From Eretmocerus hayati (Eukaryota > Arthropoda > Insecta > Hymenoptera > Aphelinidae), in contig CM056741.1 in NCBI GenBank assembly GCA_029851415.1, positions 144,262,522 to 144,326,521 on the forward strand: a stretch of 64,000 nt of DNA, given 5' to 3'. A model generated the notes under the pieces. The model was given only the letters and a program-made list of their open reading frames with translations. It had not been told where the DNA came from and did not search any database. The translations under genes were made by a program, and so were the position numbers. This document shows positions 30,850 through 56,519 of this stretch, piece after piece (the stretch's first letter is position 1; every line of letters starts with the position of its first letter).

Positions 30850-32214
30850 GTGAGTATCAACTTTTGACATTTGATTGTTTGTATATACTTTTGTCAAAAA
30901 AAAAAAATCAGCGACAAATGGGATGATGACTAGCTCTTCATTGGTCTTTTATTCATTTTAATGAAACTGATACCTTACATCTTGAAAATAGAATACGCCA
31001 CGCCACATTTAAAGTGAAGTTTGAAATGCTGATTTTTTATGTTTTTCCCCCCTTCAAGCGAAAGCTTTCTAATCAGTTTTTTGCGCTAAAAGTAATCTTT
31101 AAAAAAATTTCTGGAAAATAGTGATTGATTTTCCTTGGCATAGGATTCATAAAAAATAGACTTGCACATTCTTACGTCTGAGTGTGGGTAGTTCTTGTAC
31201 TCAGGTATTCCTCGACCGACTGCTAAAACTATCCAAGTACTATCAGATACTAGATCGGATACCTACGTTTAAAAAGTAGACAACAAGGCTGAACAGTCGC
31301 TTGATAGAAATTTTTCGCCAAGACGATCGCAATTAACCGAATTCTGACCGTGGATTGTTGCAGGTCATATTGCAGTTGCCGAATCAACTCTCCAAGATAA
31401 TTCACAACCAAGGCATCGTCGCTCTGTTGGTGGCTCGATAACTCCAAATAAAGCATATCCTTTCGTTGTCTCGATTAGCGTCCCAAGGGTTGTTCACTTG
31501 TGCGGTGGGACCATCATAACTCCAAGTGTTATCTTGACGGCTGGTCACTGTATCTATCGATACTCGAACCTACAGTTCTCGGTTTTGGTTCGAAGTAATG
31601 ATCTGAAAACTGGTGGCTCTATTTATAAAGTCTCACAAAAACTCTTACACGAGAAATACCGAAAAGTCAGAACTTCTTACAATGACATAGGTCTTCTGAA
31701 GCTCGAGGAACCCATAAAAAATATTGACGAAAGTAACGAAATTGTTACTTTGGCACGGAAAGACGAGGTGGTTCCTGTCCATAGCAACGCAACTGTCATC
31801 GGTTGGGGTGCGTTATATAACGATATGGATCAGTGGAAATTGGATCGAGATCCCAATGAAACTGTTGAGCAGAGAGCCACGTCGATGAAAGAATTATTGG
31901 GTGGTTACACGAGAAAACTCAGAAGCGTAAATATTCGTGTTGTACCAATAGAAAATTGCAAAGCTGATTTGAGTATATGGTACAAGAACATCAAATTAAG
32001 TACTGAAATCTGCACTCAAGCTTCGAAAAAAGGCACCTGTCGAGGAGATTCAGGAACGCCTCTCGTTTTGAATGAACGACAGATAGGGATAGTATCAGGG
32101 AGCAAAAACTGTGGCGGAAAACCAACGATTTACACGAACGTGGCAGCATATCGTTGGTGGATAGACCAAAAAGTAGAGCTTTTAACTCATTCAAAAGAGA
32201 GAACACGCTCATAA
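30804..32214 (+). CDS. Secreted chymotrypsin-like serine protease, S1A family (two exons, 298 aa)
   Basis: Exons 30804-30849 and 31364-32214 join in frame (a split Cys codon). The protein starts with a hydrophobic signal peptide (about 1-16) and a short pro-region ending RHRR35. Next comes SVGG where most S1 proteases have IVGG. The S1 domain carries the triad H77 (TAGHC), D123 (NDIGLL) and S245 (CRGDSGTP). The residue at the trypsin-189 position is Gly, so tryptic specificity is not expected; chymotrypsin- or elastase-like is more likely. Oddities are Ser instead of Ile at the new N-terminus, Thr in place of the second Gly of GDSGGP, and a roughly 25-residue insertion after GWG. It may be a digestive, venom or regulatory protease. 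The family is certain; the substrate is unknown. Confidence 0.92.
31364..32214 (+). CDS. Serine protease exon 2 (pro-peptide and catalytic domain)
   Basis: Acceptor GATTGTTGCAG. It encodes residues 16-298, including the whole catalytic domain without further introns, ending in TAA. Confidence 0.93.
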
Positions 32215-43400: not shown

Positions 43401-46400
43401 GCGATAATATTTGTGTCATCTTATTAGAAAAAAGAACAGGCGCAAAATAAATCTGTCCACTCTCTCAAATTTCACACTGACGCCTTCAACTCAAAGACTT
43501 CAATAACCTACAAATGCAATCTGATTCAAGATCACGCCTTATCCACATACTCCTTGATCAAGAAAGTGCGAAGGCCTAACTCAGCCGGCCTGTTGGATTC
43601 TGACTTTTAAATTTCCACTTCTCGGGCGAGCTCAAAAATAAGGGAAATAGAGGACAAACTTGGATTTTAGGGTAAAATAAGGGACGAGCTTGAAAAAAAG
43701 GGAAATAGGGGAATAAGGGACATGGCTGAGAAGACTGCATACACAAGGTAATCTTTAATGAATATTGCAAATGTTTTGAATTATTTAGCTAGCTATTGAA
43801 CTCCACCAATACCCTCCCTCGTGTTTGTAACTACAGATTTTACCTACAAATGTCATATTTAGGTAACAATAATGTACAAGTTCTGCAAACCTACCTTCGA
43901 TTCTAATTGAGATATTCCTTCAATAAAAGACGAGCTCGAAGACGAGTTATGGGTGGTTAACATTCCGTTCAACTCTAATTCACGAGAAATCTATTCATCA
44001 GCGGCCTCAGCCATACATTAATTAACCTCCTGCTCGAAAAAATAATACGAGATCTCCATAGATGCTGTGTGCCAGAGGATTAAATCCACCCGAGAAAAGA
44101 ATCAAGAGAAAAGTAATGAGCTTTCAATTCTCGCTAGACTCCTATTACTTCATTCATATTGAAGACGAGTTTCAAGATGGTTTCTCTTGACTGGAAAAGC
44201 TTATTTCTATCAACAATTAAATATTCCTATCAACAAATTTGATGGGGATATTTAGTGTGTAAGATTTTGTGTACTTTATATGTAATCATTTGCTAAATCT
44301 TGTGCTAAATAATCTCAGCAGAGATTGAATACAGCGTTTTATAATGGAAAAGAACATATTTATCCTGCATAGTTCATAAATGTCATTAGAATACTCAATT
44401 GTCGACAAAAGCTGTTCTCTCGTCCGACTCTATAGAGCTAATCTACGGTAGAACAATTAAAATCAATCATCATGAGATACGCCGTGAGAGATTAGGGATG
44501 GCAAAATCTTGGCCCTAAACAAATCGCCGTGAGCTTCTTTGTAAGTATGATAGCGTCAAGGCAGCTCTCCAAAATTTCGATTCTCCCCTTTCTGACGCTT
44601 TTCAAACTTTCCCGCGAGAATGTGTCCTACTTTCCTACCTAGTGTGAATGCAGCTATAAAAGTTGTCTGCTATGCTTGCGGCTAGGGTCACTAAAAGGGG
44701 GTCTCGACACGGTTCTCCCACCTAGGGACCCTATTTGCGGGTGGCCAGCCCCCCCCCCCCTCCTACAATGTGTTGACAGGTTCCGACAAGTTCCGACAAG
44801 CCCGTGTAATTTCCTAATTTACTGTAATTTTTCAACGTTTGTTTTTTTATCCATTATATAGTAGGTAGACATGGGAGCAATCAGCAATGCTAATTGATGC
44901 TACCTAGGTGGGTCAGTAGTTTTTGGTGTTGCTAAACGTGGCCGGCGTGGATCCGTGGATGTCGTGGCATGAGTGAGCTCGTGAGTGAGCAAGTAGTCGC
45001 ATCTTTTGTTTTTGGTAAGTAAAAGAGTGCGTGCCAAGTGAGAGAAAACTCAAAAAATCGACTTCTTCGCAACACTGCAGATGATTCATCCATGGCGTAA
45101 AAATAATATCCATGGATCTCGTGGATTTTTCACTCAGGCATGCGACGTTTTATCTCAAGTGAAGAGTGGTGGTAAAAGTACACAGTTTTTCGACTTCCTT
45201 CTTGTACAAGAACTCAATATTTGCATTCTTGATGCTAGAGTGTATTTGATGATTTACCATTTGCTGTATATGTGTAACTCTTGACAAAATAAAATCCCAA
45301 CAATTCAGATGCTGATGGAGAAATGGTATCCTCACTTCTTTTGAAGAAATCATAAGTGTCTTCTTAGTTTAAATCAGTACAGGGATGGACAATTTTAAAT
45401 ATATTGAAAAATGAGCATTCTTGATGATTGAAGTAGCTCACATTTGCTTCTTTTTTATTACTGAAAACACATTTCATTTTCTTCATTGTAGGTCAAGATT
45501 TGTGATTTATTTACTGAGGCAAGCCAAACGGTTTTCTTGAGAGAGATAGAATTGAAATTGTATTCTGATGTACCGTGTTTTGCCTATTATAAGCCACTCT
45601 CCAAATATAAGCTACCCTCCGAATATAAGCCGTACTGAGCCAAATGATGGAAATATTAGCCACCCTCCAAATTTAAGCCACCCCCAAATGTAAGCCAAGC
45701 CACCTGCAAAGATAAGCCACCCCCAAATATGAGTCAGTCTCCAAATATGCAGTAATGTGTGAAAACCATTCTTTAATAACATTTCATCATACTTGATTGA
45801 TATTTTTTTTGTGAATTTGAATATACTTGGTTTTTATACTTGATTCAAATGAATCTTTGACGATAAAATATTCGTCTGGGAATATAACCCACCCTCCAAA
45901 TATAAGCCACCCTCTAAATATAAGCCATGCTTCAGAGCCAAAAAAAATTATAAGCCATGGTTTATAATAGGCAAAACACGATATTAATGTATACTACTAA
46001 TGTAAATACTTTGAATCCTTTGGAAATGGCTTGATCTGACCAGGAAGTGAATGTAATTCCAAGCTAAGTTGGATAATAAACAGTATCATAATTTAGTTCT
46101 CATGAATCTCTAGGTTCAATCTTTGGGGCAATCACATATTGTTATGGATATCAGTAAGGAGGAACCTGAAAATGTTTCAAATGCTCCATCACCACGGTTA
46201 CATACATACGAAGAAGATTGGTTGAAGAAAGTCCAGGAAGATGTGGAAAAAGGAACAGATATAAATCACAAAGATAGTGACGGCAATACTTTACTTCATA
46301 GGGCATCTTCACAAGGTCTCGCCTCTGTTGTCAAGTTTCTTTTGAAACAATCCAAAATTGATACTAGCATAGAGAATAATAAGGGTGAGAAGGCTCTCAA

Positions 46401-49400
46401 ATTGGTGTATAATGCTCTAAAGAAGAAAGGGAAAAACAATAAGAGTAATTATGAAGAGATCAAGAGGGATTTAGAAGATCATAGTGGTCCCTTGCCAGAA
46501 AAAGAGCGTGCAGTTAGAAAAAGAAGAGCTGACAGGTACGAAGATGTTGTGTTCTGCTTATTAGAACGCGCGGGCCGTGAAAAGTTGGGCAACTATTGGT
46601 ACATAGTTGGTCGGGAGATTACGTCAAGAGAGACAAAGAATCAGAAATTTGATGATGATGTCTTTCTTTATGAAATTGATGGAAAGAAATGGATCATTCC
46701 TGTTCAAGTCAAACATAGTGGTGAAGCTAAACCACATAAAATCTGTTCCTCAGATCTATTGAGCTTATCAGGTGATTTTAGTTTTATCAAATATTTTTTT
46801 TCTTATTTGGATTTAAAATATGATATCATGAAACCCACTCTCGAAAACTCCCTTGGACCAAATCAGAATGAAGATATTGATAGCAGAAAGAACTTCAAAG
46901 GTGCTGAGATCCAGTTCATGGTATTATTTACGAGTGCCAGTATAAACATTGAAGAGTTAGAAAAATCAGGATTCGAGGTGATTAACTCACCTCGAGGCAT
47001 CCTCAACATTTTCGATTTATCAGTAGGGCTCAAAGAAGAGTTCAATTATAAAAAAATAAGAAAGATCAGTAAGAAATTAGAGGATAAGCTGTTGAAGGAA
47101 CTATCCGAATTCGAACAAGAAAACGGGCTCGATAGTTATCTTTTGACTGAAACTCAACGATATGATGAAATAGCGAATTTTTTGGATCGTTTCGTCATCA
47201 TAGTCAATCAACCTCAGGTTGAAGAATTAGAGTGGCGTCTGAGTAATTTAAATGAAAGAGATTTGTTCAAAGATACGGCTTTCCAGGGAATATTTGCCGA
47301 AGCGACATTCCAAGGGTATATGGATACTCTGACCAGAGGTCTCCCAAAAAAAGGAGGGCGCCCTTCTGGGTGGGTTAGTAGACAAGATGCTGAAGATAAG
47401 TTCTCGCAATACCAACAGCAAATTCAGATGTCGCTTATAGTAACGTGTATGACAGTAATGTACGATAAGAAAATCCGTACCCACGGCTTCTTTCGCACTT
47501 TTCACATTTCGAATAAGCTTGAACAATTCCTGAAAGATGATATGAACCGGTTTATGTTTATCAAAACTCCAGAAACTTTGTTGAGCAGTATAAAGCTATC
47601 GCAGCAGCTCGAAGAAAGAAATCAGTACAAACTTCGAAAATGTGGTCGCATTTGCGTCAACCTTAGAGAATTAGAGGCGAATGATCGATGTTGCGAGGCC
47701 ATACTTCAGGGATTTAAATGCTCCACCTCAACTTTGTTGACCGTAGAGTGCAATGCTGAGCAAAAACATGATCCAAGAATCATTTCCACATTATTGAAAA
47801 CTGTAGATGACGGTGGTGATAAAAAGATTATTTTCATTATTGAAAATAATGACTTTGAACGTTTGATCAATAACTCGTCAGTGGATAAAGTGATCTCAAG
47901 GCGATACTCTATTGATGAAGATTTGATTGAGGCAAAGAACTTCAATCCAAAGAATGATATTATGAAGAAAACTTTTTCTTTGGGAGGAGAGAAAACTACG
48001 TTGACAAAACTGACCAATATTGATAACTGGCGCACATTATCATCCTCAGCAACTCATCAGCAGTTGATGAATCCAAAAATTTTGGGCGATCTCCTCACGA
48101 ATAAGGACGTTCAAGTGGGCACCAAGCCACTAGGGATCAGCAACTTGGAAGGAGCATATTTTGACTTATTTAGGGAGATAAATGTTGAAACGCTGCGAAC
48201 GAACCTTGTTGCCGGCTCGTCGGATGTAATTTTCGTCTTGAGTGGTATATTTTCTGGCAACGAGTTCTTGAGTAATATAGGACTCGAATTGGGAAATGTT
48301 GATAATGACTTGAATATTCTAGATTATCCTTGCTCTATACCGTCTAATGAACTAGTCGTCTTGAGAGTCGATGATCAATTTGTGGAAAAAAACTTCAAGC
48401 AATTATGTCATGATAATCCTAATAAGAGGGTATACTGGACTAGGTGGGATGAGCCGAGGTTTATATTACAACAAGTTTATGATCCTGATTTCTATCTTAA
48501 ACGTAGTTTTCATACAGAATTGATGGAAGTTCCCAAACCAGCAGGGGCCAAACCAGCATGGACCAAACCAGATTGGTTGGCAACTGACGACTTCTTCATT
48601 TGTGAGAACAATCTTGCCGGTAAATACGGTGAAGAACTTGGAATTTTGGATTATATTGAACTAGATATGCAAAATGGCAAGAAACTCATGGTCAAATGTG
48701 ACGATCACATGAGAACTTTGCGGTTTGCAGAATTGGGATCAACTGTTTACACTGTTTCCCTTAGCGAAAGACAATTTGAACAAGTTGATAAAAACATGCC
48801 GAGTGCAACAGACCTTTCAACCGGAAGTACCGTGAGTAAAATGAATGGACAGTATTCATCGGAGTATAGTTTGCTTGAGGCCATCTCAAATGAAAGAGTA
48901 GTGATTCTTGCTGACGACCCGGGCATGGGGAAATCAACTACCGCTATCAAATTATACCATTTAAGCTATGGTCCCCATAACCCGTTAAGATTAGTTGACT
49001 CACACTGGGTGATACATATTCATTTAAAAGATCATGTGGAATCGATAAAACGAATTGACCCTGAGTTGTTGGACGTTACTCAATTTCTGTCCGAGATCAC
49101 CAAAAATTTAGAAACTGAATTCGCACAGAGTTTGCTCAATATTGCGATGTACCAAAACTCAACAATTTTCAGTAAGCCTCTTTTGATGATCTTTGATGGT
49201 TTTGATGAACTCCACGATGAATCAGATCGGGAGAAGATTTGTTCGCTTTTTGAAAATCTAAAGAACGAGACTCACGTAAAATTCTGGATTACGACTCGTT
49301 CTAACATGAAAGCAACGCTCGAAACAACTTTAGGGGTACGCTCTGTACAGTTTGATCCCTTAGATGAAAAAGGATTGGTAGCATTTATAAGAAAATATCT

Positions 49401-52400
49401 GTTAGTTCGTTCTAGTTTAATTTTTAGTCAGCACGAGTTGAGAGTTTTCGATAACACCGAGAACAACAATTCGAAAATCAAACAGTATTGTAAAAGATTC
49501 CTAGACAAAATGCAGACAGTATTCCGGAAAGATATATCTAGATTTATAGGTACCCCTCTTCAGATGTACTTGCTTCTAGAGGGACTAAGATCCCAAGAGC
49601 ACCCAGAAACTTTGGAAACAACACTAAGTTGTGTAATAGAATCATTCAAAATTTGGGTTAATAGTGGGACCGAGCCAGATTTCGATTTTGTTGGTGATAG
49701 CCCAACGGAAGTCTATGAGAATTTCATCAACAGCAAGTACGAAAATTACTTCAAAAAAGATAGGATTCTATCAGATTCCGAGAAAGTTGCAAAAAAATTT
49801 CTATTTAACAAATTTTGTAAGACTTTGGCAGGCAAATTGGTAAAATCTTCAACATCAGATATTCTGCGGCACCACGAGGCAATGGTTCTTGCTCCCGGAT
49901 TAATTAAATCCGACGGTAACATTTTTGAGTTCATTCATCCAACGTTCGGCGAGTACTTTGCCTCGGAGATTTGTTCGAGTTGGATTGAAAAAGATTCTCA
50001 GTTGCCAAATTCTGCGAAACGAGAGTTCCTTTTGAGAGAGATTTTAATTCAAGAAACCTTTTCCGTAATTTCTTTTTTTCTAGATGCTAAATTGCATGAT
50101 AAAGTTACCGCGCTCAAAGAAAATACAGTGCAACACTTCGGTGACCTTTTGAAAAAGTTATGGCCCATGGAATCCGATGAAATTGACGATACGCCATTGC
50201 ACGTTGCAGTAGAAACGGGTCACATACATATAATGAATTTTCTCTTTACTTGTCTTCATAAAACCGATGCAAAAACCGTTGAAAATTTTCTATTAGCTCG
50301 TAGTCAACAACAACGAACCATCATGGAGTTGGCGATCAACCGGAAGAGTCTCGAAGTAATGAGACTGATATTTAGTTTTGCTAAAAGGATTTCAAATGAT
50401 TTGTACTACAAACTCCTCACTTTTGAAAACCCTACTTGGGGTGTTATTTTGCACGCAGCAGTGAGGGTAGGAAGGATTGATATTGTTGATGAGATATTGA
50501 CTCGAGCCAGTAAGGTTCCCAACGAAAACTCAATTGAAATTCTCGAAAAATTACTGTCAGGTGTGGATAGAGAGGGTTACACCGCCCTAAATCATGCTAT
50601 AATATGCCGTTACCATGAGATAGTGAAACGATTGTTATTCTACGCTAAGAACATCGAAAATAATCAGAACATTTTGAGATCGTTAATCTTACCTAATGGC
50701 AGAGGTTCTTTTCCTCTTTATTTTGCAGCTAAATTAGGGCTTGTAGAATTGGTGAAAGATTTGTTAGGCCTCGCTCGATTAGGTTCGACTGATTTTTTAG
50801 AGGCAGCTCTTTTTGCCACCGACAACGGGTGCACAGCATTGCACGGAGCAGCTGAATGGGCTCAATTGGAATCGATGAATTTGCTATTGGAAGAAGCTAA
50901 AAAGTTGTCATCAGATAACACTGATAGTGATTCTAGTAAGCTTTACAAGTTTATTTTTCATTCTAACACCCACGGGCATAATGCTATTTATCTGATGTGC
51001 AGAAATGGTTACGAAGACACCGTTGAGCAAGCCTTTCAATCTGTTAGACAGTATTCAAATATTTGGAATACGATACTACATACTCTGGATCAAATTCCAC
51101 TTAGAGTCAAGCTTGATGTTGAAATAAGGAAAGTGGAAAGATTTTTGATGTATGGAAAGATTAATTTAATAGAAAATATTCTCAAAGAACGGAGAGATTC
51201 GAAGGATAGGCTGAGACTAATTCTTGATACTCTCAAGAATGAAATCCCAAAATATCATGCGACAACGCAAGCTCGTCTATGGGGCGCATGCGATCTGGCG
51301 GGAATGCTATCATCTTATGAAGAAGACATTGATAAATGACTAAGATACCAACGAAATTTCCGTGAGGAGTTACGAGAGAAGAGCAACAAGGCTTTTTACC
51401 TAAAAAATTTCATATTGAATCTGGAATCTCACATCAGCGATGAGGTCAAAGATCAAAATTGAAAGAATGAGTTACTTGAATGTGGTCGAGTAGGATAGCG
51501 CGTGAAACCAATCGACTTTCCAATAGTTTCACGGAGCAAAGAAATGAAGGCGAATCAATCGTGAGATAATATTTGTTAACGTTGTTTATAAGTCAAGCTA
51601 ATTTTTGGTGACATCATATTCTTTTGTGTGAGTAGAACAGTACTCGCGTTTTCCAACGCACAAAGGATGCTCAACAGTAATTTTTCTGAGTGGTTTCTAA
51701 CATGAATGCTCATGAATTGTACCTCGATCTTAAATATGAACTATACCATTCCAATCATGCGGCTCATGGCCATAACTTGGGAACAGTATCATGAGAATTC
51801 AAAATGATACACGTTTGAAGCAAACGATGACGTATCTCTATCATAATGATTTGTGTAATTGGCTGTTTCGACGACATGGAGTTTGAAGATCGAAAATGAT
51901 CCATAAAGCAAAAAGTTTATTGGTCAAGTTTTTTTCTGGATTCGTGGAATCCGTGACATCATTCTTTGGATCTTGTCGAACAAATGAAAAGTTGATTGAC
52001 CAAACTAAAATCGTGTGCAGATTATCTTTCTGACCAAAACATTTCATGTACAATGTTCATTCGTACTTTTCCAAAAACCAGCTTATAATTGGACCTCATT
52101 TGTACTGTAATGCAACTAGAAAATTTTGAGGAGGCTCATCATAGTATGTCACGAGACCCTGATAATGAAGGAGCATTGTCACTCACAACCTATAACATTT
52201 TTGAAAGTATTTATAGAATTATTGTAATGTTCATTGATTTTATACGAGTCAAGTTGAGCTCGTGACTGATCCTGCTAGTAAGATATTAATTCTAGTTCAA
52301 GTTTTACTTTCAAAAAAAATTCAATCACACTTTCAATTCCATTCTTTCTCGACAATGTTATGCCATGTCAGACAATATTCAGGTTGAGTGAGGTGGTCTA

Positions 52401-56212: not shown

Positions 56213-56519
56213 CCAACCTTGCGGGTCCTAAATCTTGACGAAACTTTGGGAATCTTCTTGTTTTGGTGAGAAATGAAAGTACCAAAGAGGGTTTCGTCCA
56301 ACGGGCCTCCTATCCCGAGATACAGCTATAGAGATTAGCATTGTCAGTATATCTATATATATGTCATTTTAACATGGGCTTATATGGACAATTCTAATTT
56401 CCATAGCTGTATCTTGGAATAGGAGGCCCATTGGACTAAACCCTTGGAGATACCTTCATTTCTCACCAAAAGAAGACGATCTCCAGAGTTTCATCAAGAT
56501 CCGTCTTCCGCAAGGTTGG
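56213..56519. repeat. Palindromic repeat, family A, complete 307 bp copy
   Basis: The ends CCAACCTTGCGG and CCGCAAGGTTGG are perfectly inverted. The arms carry GGGCCTCCTATCCCGAGATA and TATCTTGGAATAGGAGGCCC around an AT-rich loop. Same family as 1-183 and 11141-11452. Confidence 0.88.

Follow-up and report, generated by a model that had tools for sequence, protein, structure and literature searches.

An ankyrin-flanked NACHT ATPase gene with a predicted Cap4-like nuclease on a chromosome of the wasp Eretmocerus hayati

A stretch of 64,000 nucleotides of the Eretmocerus hayati genome (GCA_029851415.1, contig CM056741.1), hereafter the window, carries a chromosomal gene for a NACHT ATPase with ankyrin repeats on both sides and a predicted N-terminal Cap4-like nuclease. 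We tentatively read it as a gene likely taken up long ago from an intracellular bacterium of the Rickettsiales type and likely kept as useful, an account to which we give slightly less than even credence. The frame is open on the + strand from 46114 to 51339 (1,741 codons). Its first ATG, at 46144, begins a single-exon open reading frame (ORF) of 1,731 codons plus the stop codon at 51337-51339 (46144..51339), while an ORF listing gave the same frame as 46123-51339 with a TTG start. The translation of the open frame from 46114 is termed P0001 and provides the residue numbers used here, the ATG methionine being residue 11. The single frame of 1,731 codons noted in a preliminary description of this DNA was confirmed by direct reading, and the longest open frame in 50 simulated 64-kb windows (first-order Markov) had 251 codons.

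Several modules were recognized in P0001, for which a Pfam search gave 11 matches at E up to 10; all lie on the + strand. Ankyrin repeats occupy about residues 44-97 (46243..46404; Ank 56-88, Ank_5 49-97, Ank_4 44-77). They are followed by the predicted Cap4-like PD-(D/E)XK nuclease domain (roughly residues 136-330, both ends being estimates; 46519..47103), containing the catalytic signature FDDD...QVKH (residues 179-201; 46648..46716), and by a predicted degenerate P-loop domain (about residues 446-611; 47449..47946). In the latter, no Walker A was seen in the six family members inspected, and the degenerate P-loop region (model residues 322-487) superposed on Sec18, DnaBC and p97 chains at 3.0-3.5 Å. 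The NACHT nucleotide-binding domain (residues 928-1096; 48895..49401) scored 30.7 bits against PF05729, above the curated cut-off of 26.7; searched alone, it gave no sequence match in the PDB. Walker A, a D-G-x-D-E Walker B and the sensor arginine, which define NACHT membership, are all present. The four motifs quoted in the preliminary description were likewise found by direct reading: PGMGKST (Walker A, 936-942; 48919..48939), FDGFDE (Walker B, 1027-1032; 49192..49209), the sensor-1-like ITTRS (1059-1063; 49288..49302) and, in the helical region after the ATPase, FIHPTFGEYFA (1273-1283; 49930..49962). In six aligned proteins T1060 and R1062 of the third and F1273, H1275, T1277, E1280, Y1281, F1282 and A1283 of the fourth were invariant. 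Finally, a C-terminal ankyrin array spans approximately residues 1340-1640 (50131..51033), with four Ank_2 stretches in P0001, the best at 1467-1551. With Pfam NACHT above its cut-off and ankyrins at both ends, the proposed STAND ATPase between two ankyrin regions was borne out. The C-terminal array, presumed to be the sensor, was only 25% identical to that of the relative P0002, the lowest value among eight regions compared.

The nuclease, which had been put forward as a candidate, was supported by motif, profile and predicted-fold evidence as a plausible N-terminal effector. The PD-(D/E)XK fold of Cap4 was found in the predicted structure of P0001 and the D...QxK active-site residues were read in its sequence; D181, Q198, K200 and H201 were unchanged in 14/14 and 15/15 rows of two overlapping alignments. 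A Pfam nuclease match was what the candidate lacked: no nuclease family was found in P0001, PF14130 (Cap4 nuclease) gave no match at E up to 10, and the wasp relative L009 reached 15.3 bits against a cut-off of 26.2. It appears improbable that the nuclease fold has no catalytic activity and that P0001 serves as a NACHT-ankyrin scaffold. The absent Cap4 match would fit a silent domain, as would L007, a wasp gene with NACHT and ankyrins in which the signature is missing, so that a nuclease-free form exists. Against it stand the four invariant residues and the ratio of nonsynonymous to synonymous substitution (dN/dS) between the wasp genes L008 and L009, which in the nuclease was 0.09 compared with 0.21 and 0.23, the lowest of the three measurable regions.

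With regard to residence in the wasp, the window lies at 144.3 Mb of chromosome C1 (205 Mb), within a published assembly of four chromosomes and 692.1 Mb (PMC10482854, available part). About 5.1% of single substitutions in P0001 would create a stop, and approximately 27 stops are expected for each 0.1 substitutions per site of neutral drift; none is present in the intact ORF. Fourfold-site GC was 0.369 in P0001, near the related wasp genes L007-L009 (0.324-0.361) and above six bacterial sequences (0.143-0.271; L040, a Rickettsiales relative, 0.221), with 0.270, 0.364 and 0.386 in three short wasp exons. Codon-usage distance from P0001 was 0.54-0.55 for L007-L009 and 0.72-1.18 for the six bacterial sequences. 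The distances to the three short wasp exons (0.97-1.46) were not below the bacterial values, which is probably small-sample noise. That the gene is contamination of the assembly, or a relic that is not expressed or arrived only recently, we regard as very improbable, given its chromosomal site, the trypsin exon some 14 kb upstream of it (31498-32211), the fourfold GC and the absence of stops. Such an account would be favoured by the absence of the exact protein from two protein-database searches, although a much shorter gene model would have been missed there because of the length limit. The terms "NACHT" and "ankyrin" were absent, in a term search, from the main text of the later genome paper PMC13116730.

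Protein searches found relatives in Artemia franciscana, Tribolium madens, Trichoplax, a Cacopsylla melanoneura record, Candidatus Amoebophilus asiaticus and a Rickettsiales endosymbiont of Trichoplax; a homologue search with L008 found relatives of a second lineage in Amoebophilus and Trichoplax. One of these searches gave 53 proteins, of which five were used (P0002, P0019, P0020, P0021, P0062) and 48 set aside on listed names and domains of ankyrin type; P0003 and P0004 did not recur among the 53. P0021, of 3,573 aa, contains numerous ankyrins, a single nuclease signature and a pair of NACHT modules. A suspected latrotoxin C-terminus in P0002 was dropped, as Pfam and PDB searches gave no support. 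When bacterial genomes were scanned with the P0001 family as query, none of 187 stretches could be confirmed. A second scan, with the L008 family, gave four loci and added two Rickettsiales metagenome-assembled genomes (MAGs) and one Midichloriaceae MAG; among the four, a Parabacteroides match (L016) covered just 56 residues after the ATPase and was not used.

Among 262 Rickettsiales-order genomes searched, 227 had a match; because most of the listed matches were ankyrin-only, no family count was derived from this tally. Genomes G361 and G435 were used and a fragment of G386 was inspected; further NACHT-region matches occurred in G414, G344 and G328. In G361, the frame L040 (1,828 open codons) matched the P0001 family at 886.6 bits over the span running from the nuclease to the NACHT domain, and the TAA counted within this match sits just ahead of the frame. 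L040 and P0001 were 36% identical over 391 residues of the NACHT region, the same as P0004, the Cacopsylla record, over 391. P0004 was in turn 56% identical to L040 over 1,792 residues and is probably, judging by sequence, a symbiont gene caught in psyllid data. G435 holds two NACHT-ankyrin loci, and its frame L042 (3,224 open codons) encodes Latrotoxin_C (33.3 bits, cut-off 25) together with NACHT and numerous ankyrins. Among the open pieces of G435 and a second G361 locus, a convincing nuclease signature was present only in the first piece of L043. In plasmid records, P0001 matched one, within ankyrins, and L040 matched 32, the 10 listed all within its ankyrins; neither L040 nor L043 had a near DNA match there. 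A phage or viral origin was set aside: tblastn against 50,697 phage records gave no match, and two IMG/VR scans yielded no confirmed relative.

Trees of the two protein halves disagreed. In the NACHT trees, P0001 and P0002 stood beside P0004 and G361 (100/99). In the final NACHT tree, three Artemia rows joined G435 (87/95), and L008/L009 clustered with Trichoplax and bacterial rows (100/100). In the nuclease-plus-linker tree, P0001 and P0002 grouped with the three Artemia rows (100/100), without a named bacterium and away from G361. Identities followed the same pattern: P0001 and the Artemia rows shared 41-44% in the N-terminal ankyrins, 50-52% in the nuclease, 39-45% in the linker and 27-28% in NACHT, while P0001 and P0004 shared 31% in the nuclease, 20% in the linker and 39% in NACHT. 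Forcing eight animal rows together in the NACHT tree was rejected (p-AU 1.9e-7), as was forcing P0001 and Artemia together; the groups of the two clade tests run on the final trees were picked after the nuclease identities and trees had been seen. Support for separating the P0001 branch from the L008 branch was 100/99, 100/100 and 74/92 in three analyses, one P0021 module switching side in the last. The nuclease-only tree had long branches and weak forks. The first tree pair left out P0012 and P0016 (the nuclease tree also L007), and the NACHT tree with the eight-row test left out L007, P0012, P0016, P0017 and P0018. The final NACHT and nuclease-plus-linker trees left out Tribolium, L007, L041, P0007, P0008, P0011, P0012 and P0014-P0018, and the NACHT tree also P0021.

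The simplest reading of these conflicts is an exchange of effector and sensor halves together with transfers between animals and intracellular bacteria, whose direction we infer from the branching and the bacterial members. The core relatives in the Rickettsiales order, the second-lineage kin in Amoebophilus and Trichoplax, and the Wolbachia and arthropod relatives reported in 2016 make an intracellular bacterium the probable source of the wasp gene. An old animal family captured by symbionts, with the wasp gene inherited vertically, seems rather unlikely. Such a history would suit the long animal contigs that hold the Artemia and Tribolium relatives, the nuclease-plus-linker grouping and the available part of PMC5062602, where the prophage WO NACHT is nested in a more diverse arthropod set and, for a TPR gene likened to the NACHT gene, arthropod-to-phage transfer is preferred and the reverse called plausible. 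It is at odds with the threefold division of animal rows in the NACHT tree, where their union was rejected, and with the Rickettsiales nuclease-to-NACHT core, which finds a single wasp locus.

The wasp contains further NACHT genes. L008 (2464-7632) and L009 (4236-9395) are tandem intron-free nuclease-NACHT genes on C2, about 6.5 kb apart (dN 0.30, dS 1.62; NACHT dS not computable); L009 matches the annotated protein P0006 in length and, by eye, in sequence. The Pfam search found no ankyrin in either, and their long C-termini had no clear Pfam family. As they lie in a clade with symbiont genes, on another, symbiont-rich branch than P0001, nuclease-NACHT genes of two lineages are present in the wasp. 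L007 (L007:2411-9232, C4) is a single frame of 2,274 codons, with 56/198 positions identical to Artemia P0003 in the NACHT region and 314/972 in the ankyrin region. A separate NACHT exon (L001:1465-2139; G000:C3:127495616-127496125) had the top NACHT score of the genome scan (75.1 bits) and its best PDB matches in NLRP9 and NLRP3. This makes it harder to maintain that insects are without NLR-type genes.

Bacterial Avs proteins combine a repeat sensor, a STAND switch and a nuclease effector and destroy DNA when an invader is sensed, their C-terminal TPR sensor binding an invader protein. Because the repeat sensor, STAND switch and nuclease of P0001 resemble this arrangement, a comparable sequence of events can be proposed. 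The resting protein would have a closed NACHT ATPase and an inactive nuclease. A ligand, probably a viral or intracellular-bacterial protein, would bind the fast-evolving C-terminal ankyrins, whereupon the NACHT domain would swap its nucleotide and oligomerise, gathering the N-terminal nuclease domains so that DNA is cleaved; the target would be the DNA of the invader or, in a suicide response, that of the cell itself. It is by this analogy that we infer a defence role for P0001.

Because some of the bacterial kin resemble host-directed proteins and CifB combines comparable domains, the leading alternative is that a symbiont effector was domesticated and now acts in wasp physiology or reproduction, or as a selfish toxin-antidote trait, rather than in immunity. 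Its nuclease would work on chromatin in a CifB-like manner, with developmental or antagonistic control. We consider this unlikely, if worth serious attention. Parts typical of host-directed proteins occur in the L008 family, in which Pfam matched PF02902 (Ulp1) in two of the 12 members, PF22179 (RickCE) in one and PF22102 (ElaD/SseL) in one, without assignment to individual members; by our own reading of the sequences, the protease part precedes the nuclease. In the same direction point L042, with its NACHT, ankyrins and Latrotoxin_C, and CifB, in which PD-(D/E)XK nucleases accompany an AAA-ATPase-like domain and ankyrins are frequent (PMC12445526, available part). By contrast, P0001 had no protease or Latrotoxin_C match in Pfam, and no antidote partner was found among the 10 nearby ORFs of at least 150 aa, the only ones tested, of which one matched trypsin and nine had no match at E up to 0.01.

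Around the gene, no ORF-framing repeat pair of at least 30 bases was found between 40 and 57 kb, and a mobile-element cargo was set aside. Upstream, there are only short ATAAGCCACCCTCC-type repeats; directly upstream, 45588-45949 consists of degenerate short repeats with a ATAAGCCACCCTCCAAA-type unit. An inverted repeat lies at 56232-56500 (arms of 120 nt, 83% complementary, gap of 29 nt).

A broader proposal, which is possible but to be held with more doubt than credence, is that insects have DNA-destroying NLR-type alarms: the wasp would have adopted at least twice Avs-like STAND nucleases of symbionts, with nuclease halves and NACHT-sensor halves swapped between intracellular bacteria and animals. 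A gene of the kind read here would equip arthropods with a receptor of NLR type that has its own DNA-cutting effector, and would show that the bacteria living inside animal cells can be a source of such receptors for their hosts. This would join three seldom-meeting fields (animal NLRs, the Avs defence of bacteria, and reproductive effectors of symbionts such as CifB) and allow a direct test of insect use of STAND sensors in a wasp employed for whitefly biocontrol. An undescribed arthropod system, as first suggested, is too strong a term: the available part of PMC5062602 reported NACHT-ankyrin relatives across arthropods, crustaceans and Wolbachia prophage WO in 2016, and core kin occur in a Rickettsiales-order genome. 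Within the open-licence literature searched (including PMC8195603, PMC3712931 and PMC6879607, available parts), we found no mention of the P0001 nuclease, the bacterial nuclease-NACHT kin, the mosaic or the two wasp lineages.

Compared with known systems, P0001 shares the NACHT fold with the vertebrate NLRs NLRP3, NLRP9 and NLRC4, but has no Pfam match at E up to 10 to an LRR or a death fold, the sensor and effector of the vertebrate type. Cap4/DUF4297 nucleases (Cap4 of CBASS, HerA-DUF) have the predicted fold and the D..QxK signature in common with it; in contrast to Cap4, PF14130 was not reported and SAVED had no match in P0001. The NACHT-ankyrin-latrotoxin protein of prophage WO, common to Wolbachia and arthropods and resembled by L042, has the same order of NACHT and ankyrins, whereas no nuclease is named for it in the available part of PMC5062602 and P0001 lacks its Latrotoxin_C. 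L040 and P0004 follow P0001 in the order nuclease, middle region, NACHT and ankyrins, but have no ankyrins ahead of the nuclease (signatures at residues 62 and 67), a diverged nuclease and linker and, for L040, lower fourfold GC. The three Artemia proteins (LOC136028392, LOC136028431 and QYM36_002656; P0003, P0019 and P0020) are like P0001 in the N-terminal half, while their NACHT lies on another branch. In PADLOC 2023, which has no model named Avs, no family matched the P0001 core; whole P0001 gave PDC-M72A over its N-terminal ankyrins, and 14 family members only PDC-M72A, Ankyrin, MzaA and one mads_8 match. Structure comparison of the P0001 model did list Avs3 and Avs4 (8dgc, 8dgf), which share with it a predicted N-terminal nuclease, a STAND ATPase and C-terminal repeats. 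P0001 differs from them in its ankyrin rather than TPR sensor, no TPR family being among its Pfam matches, in its additional pseudo-NTPase and in its animal host.

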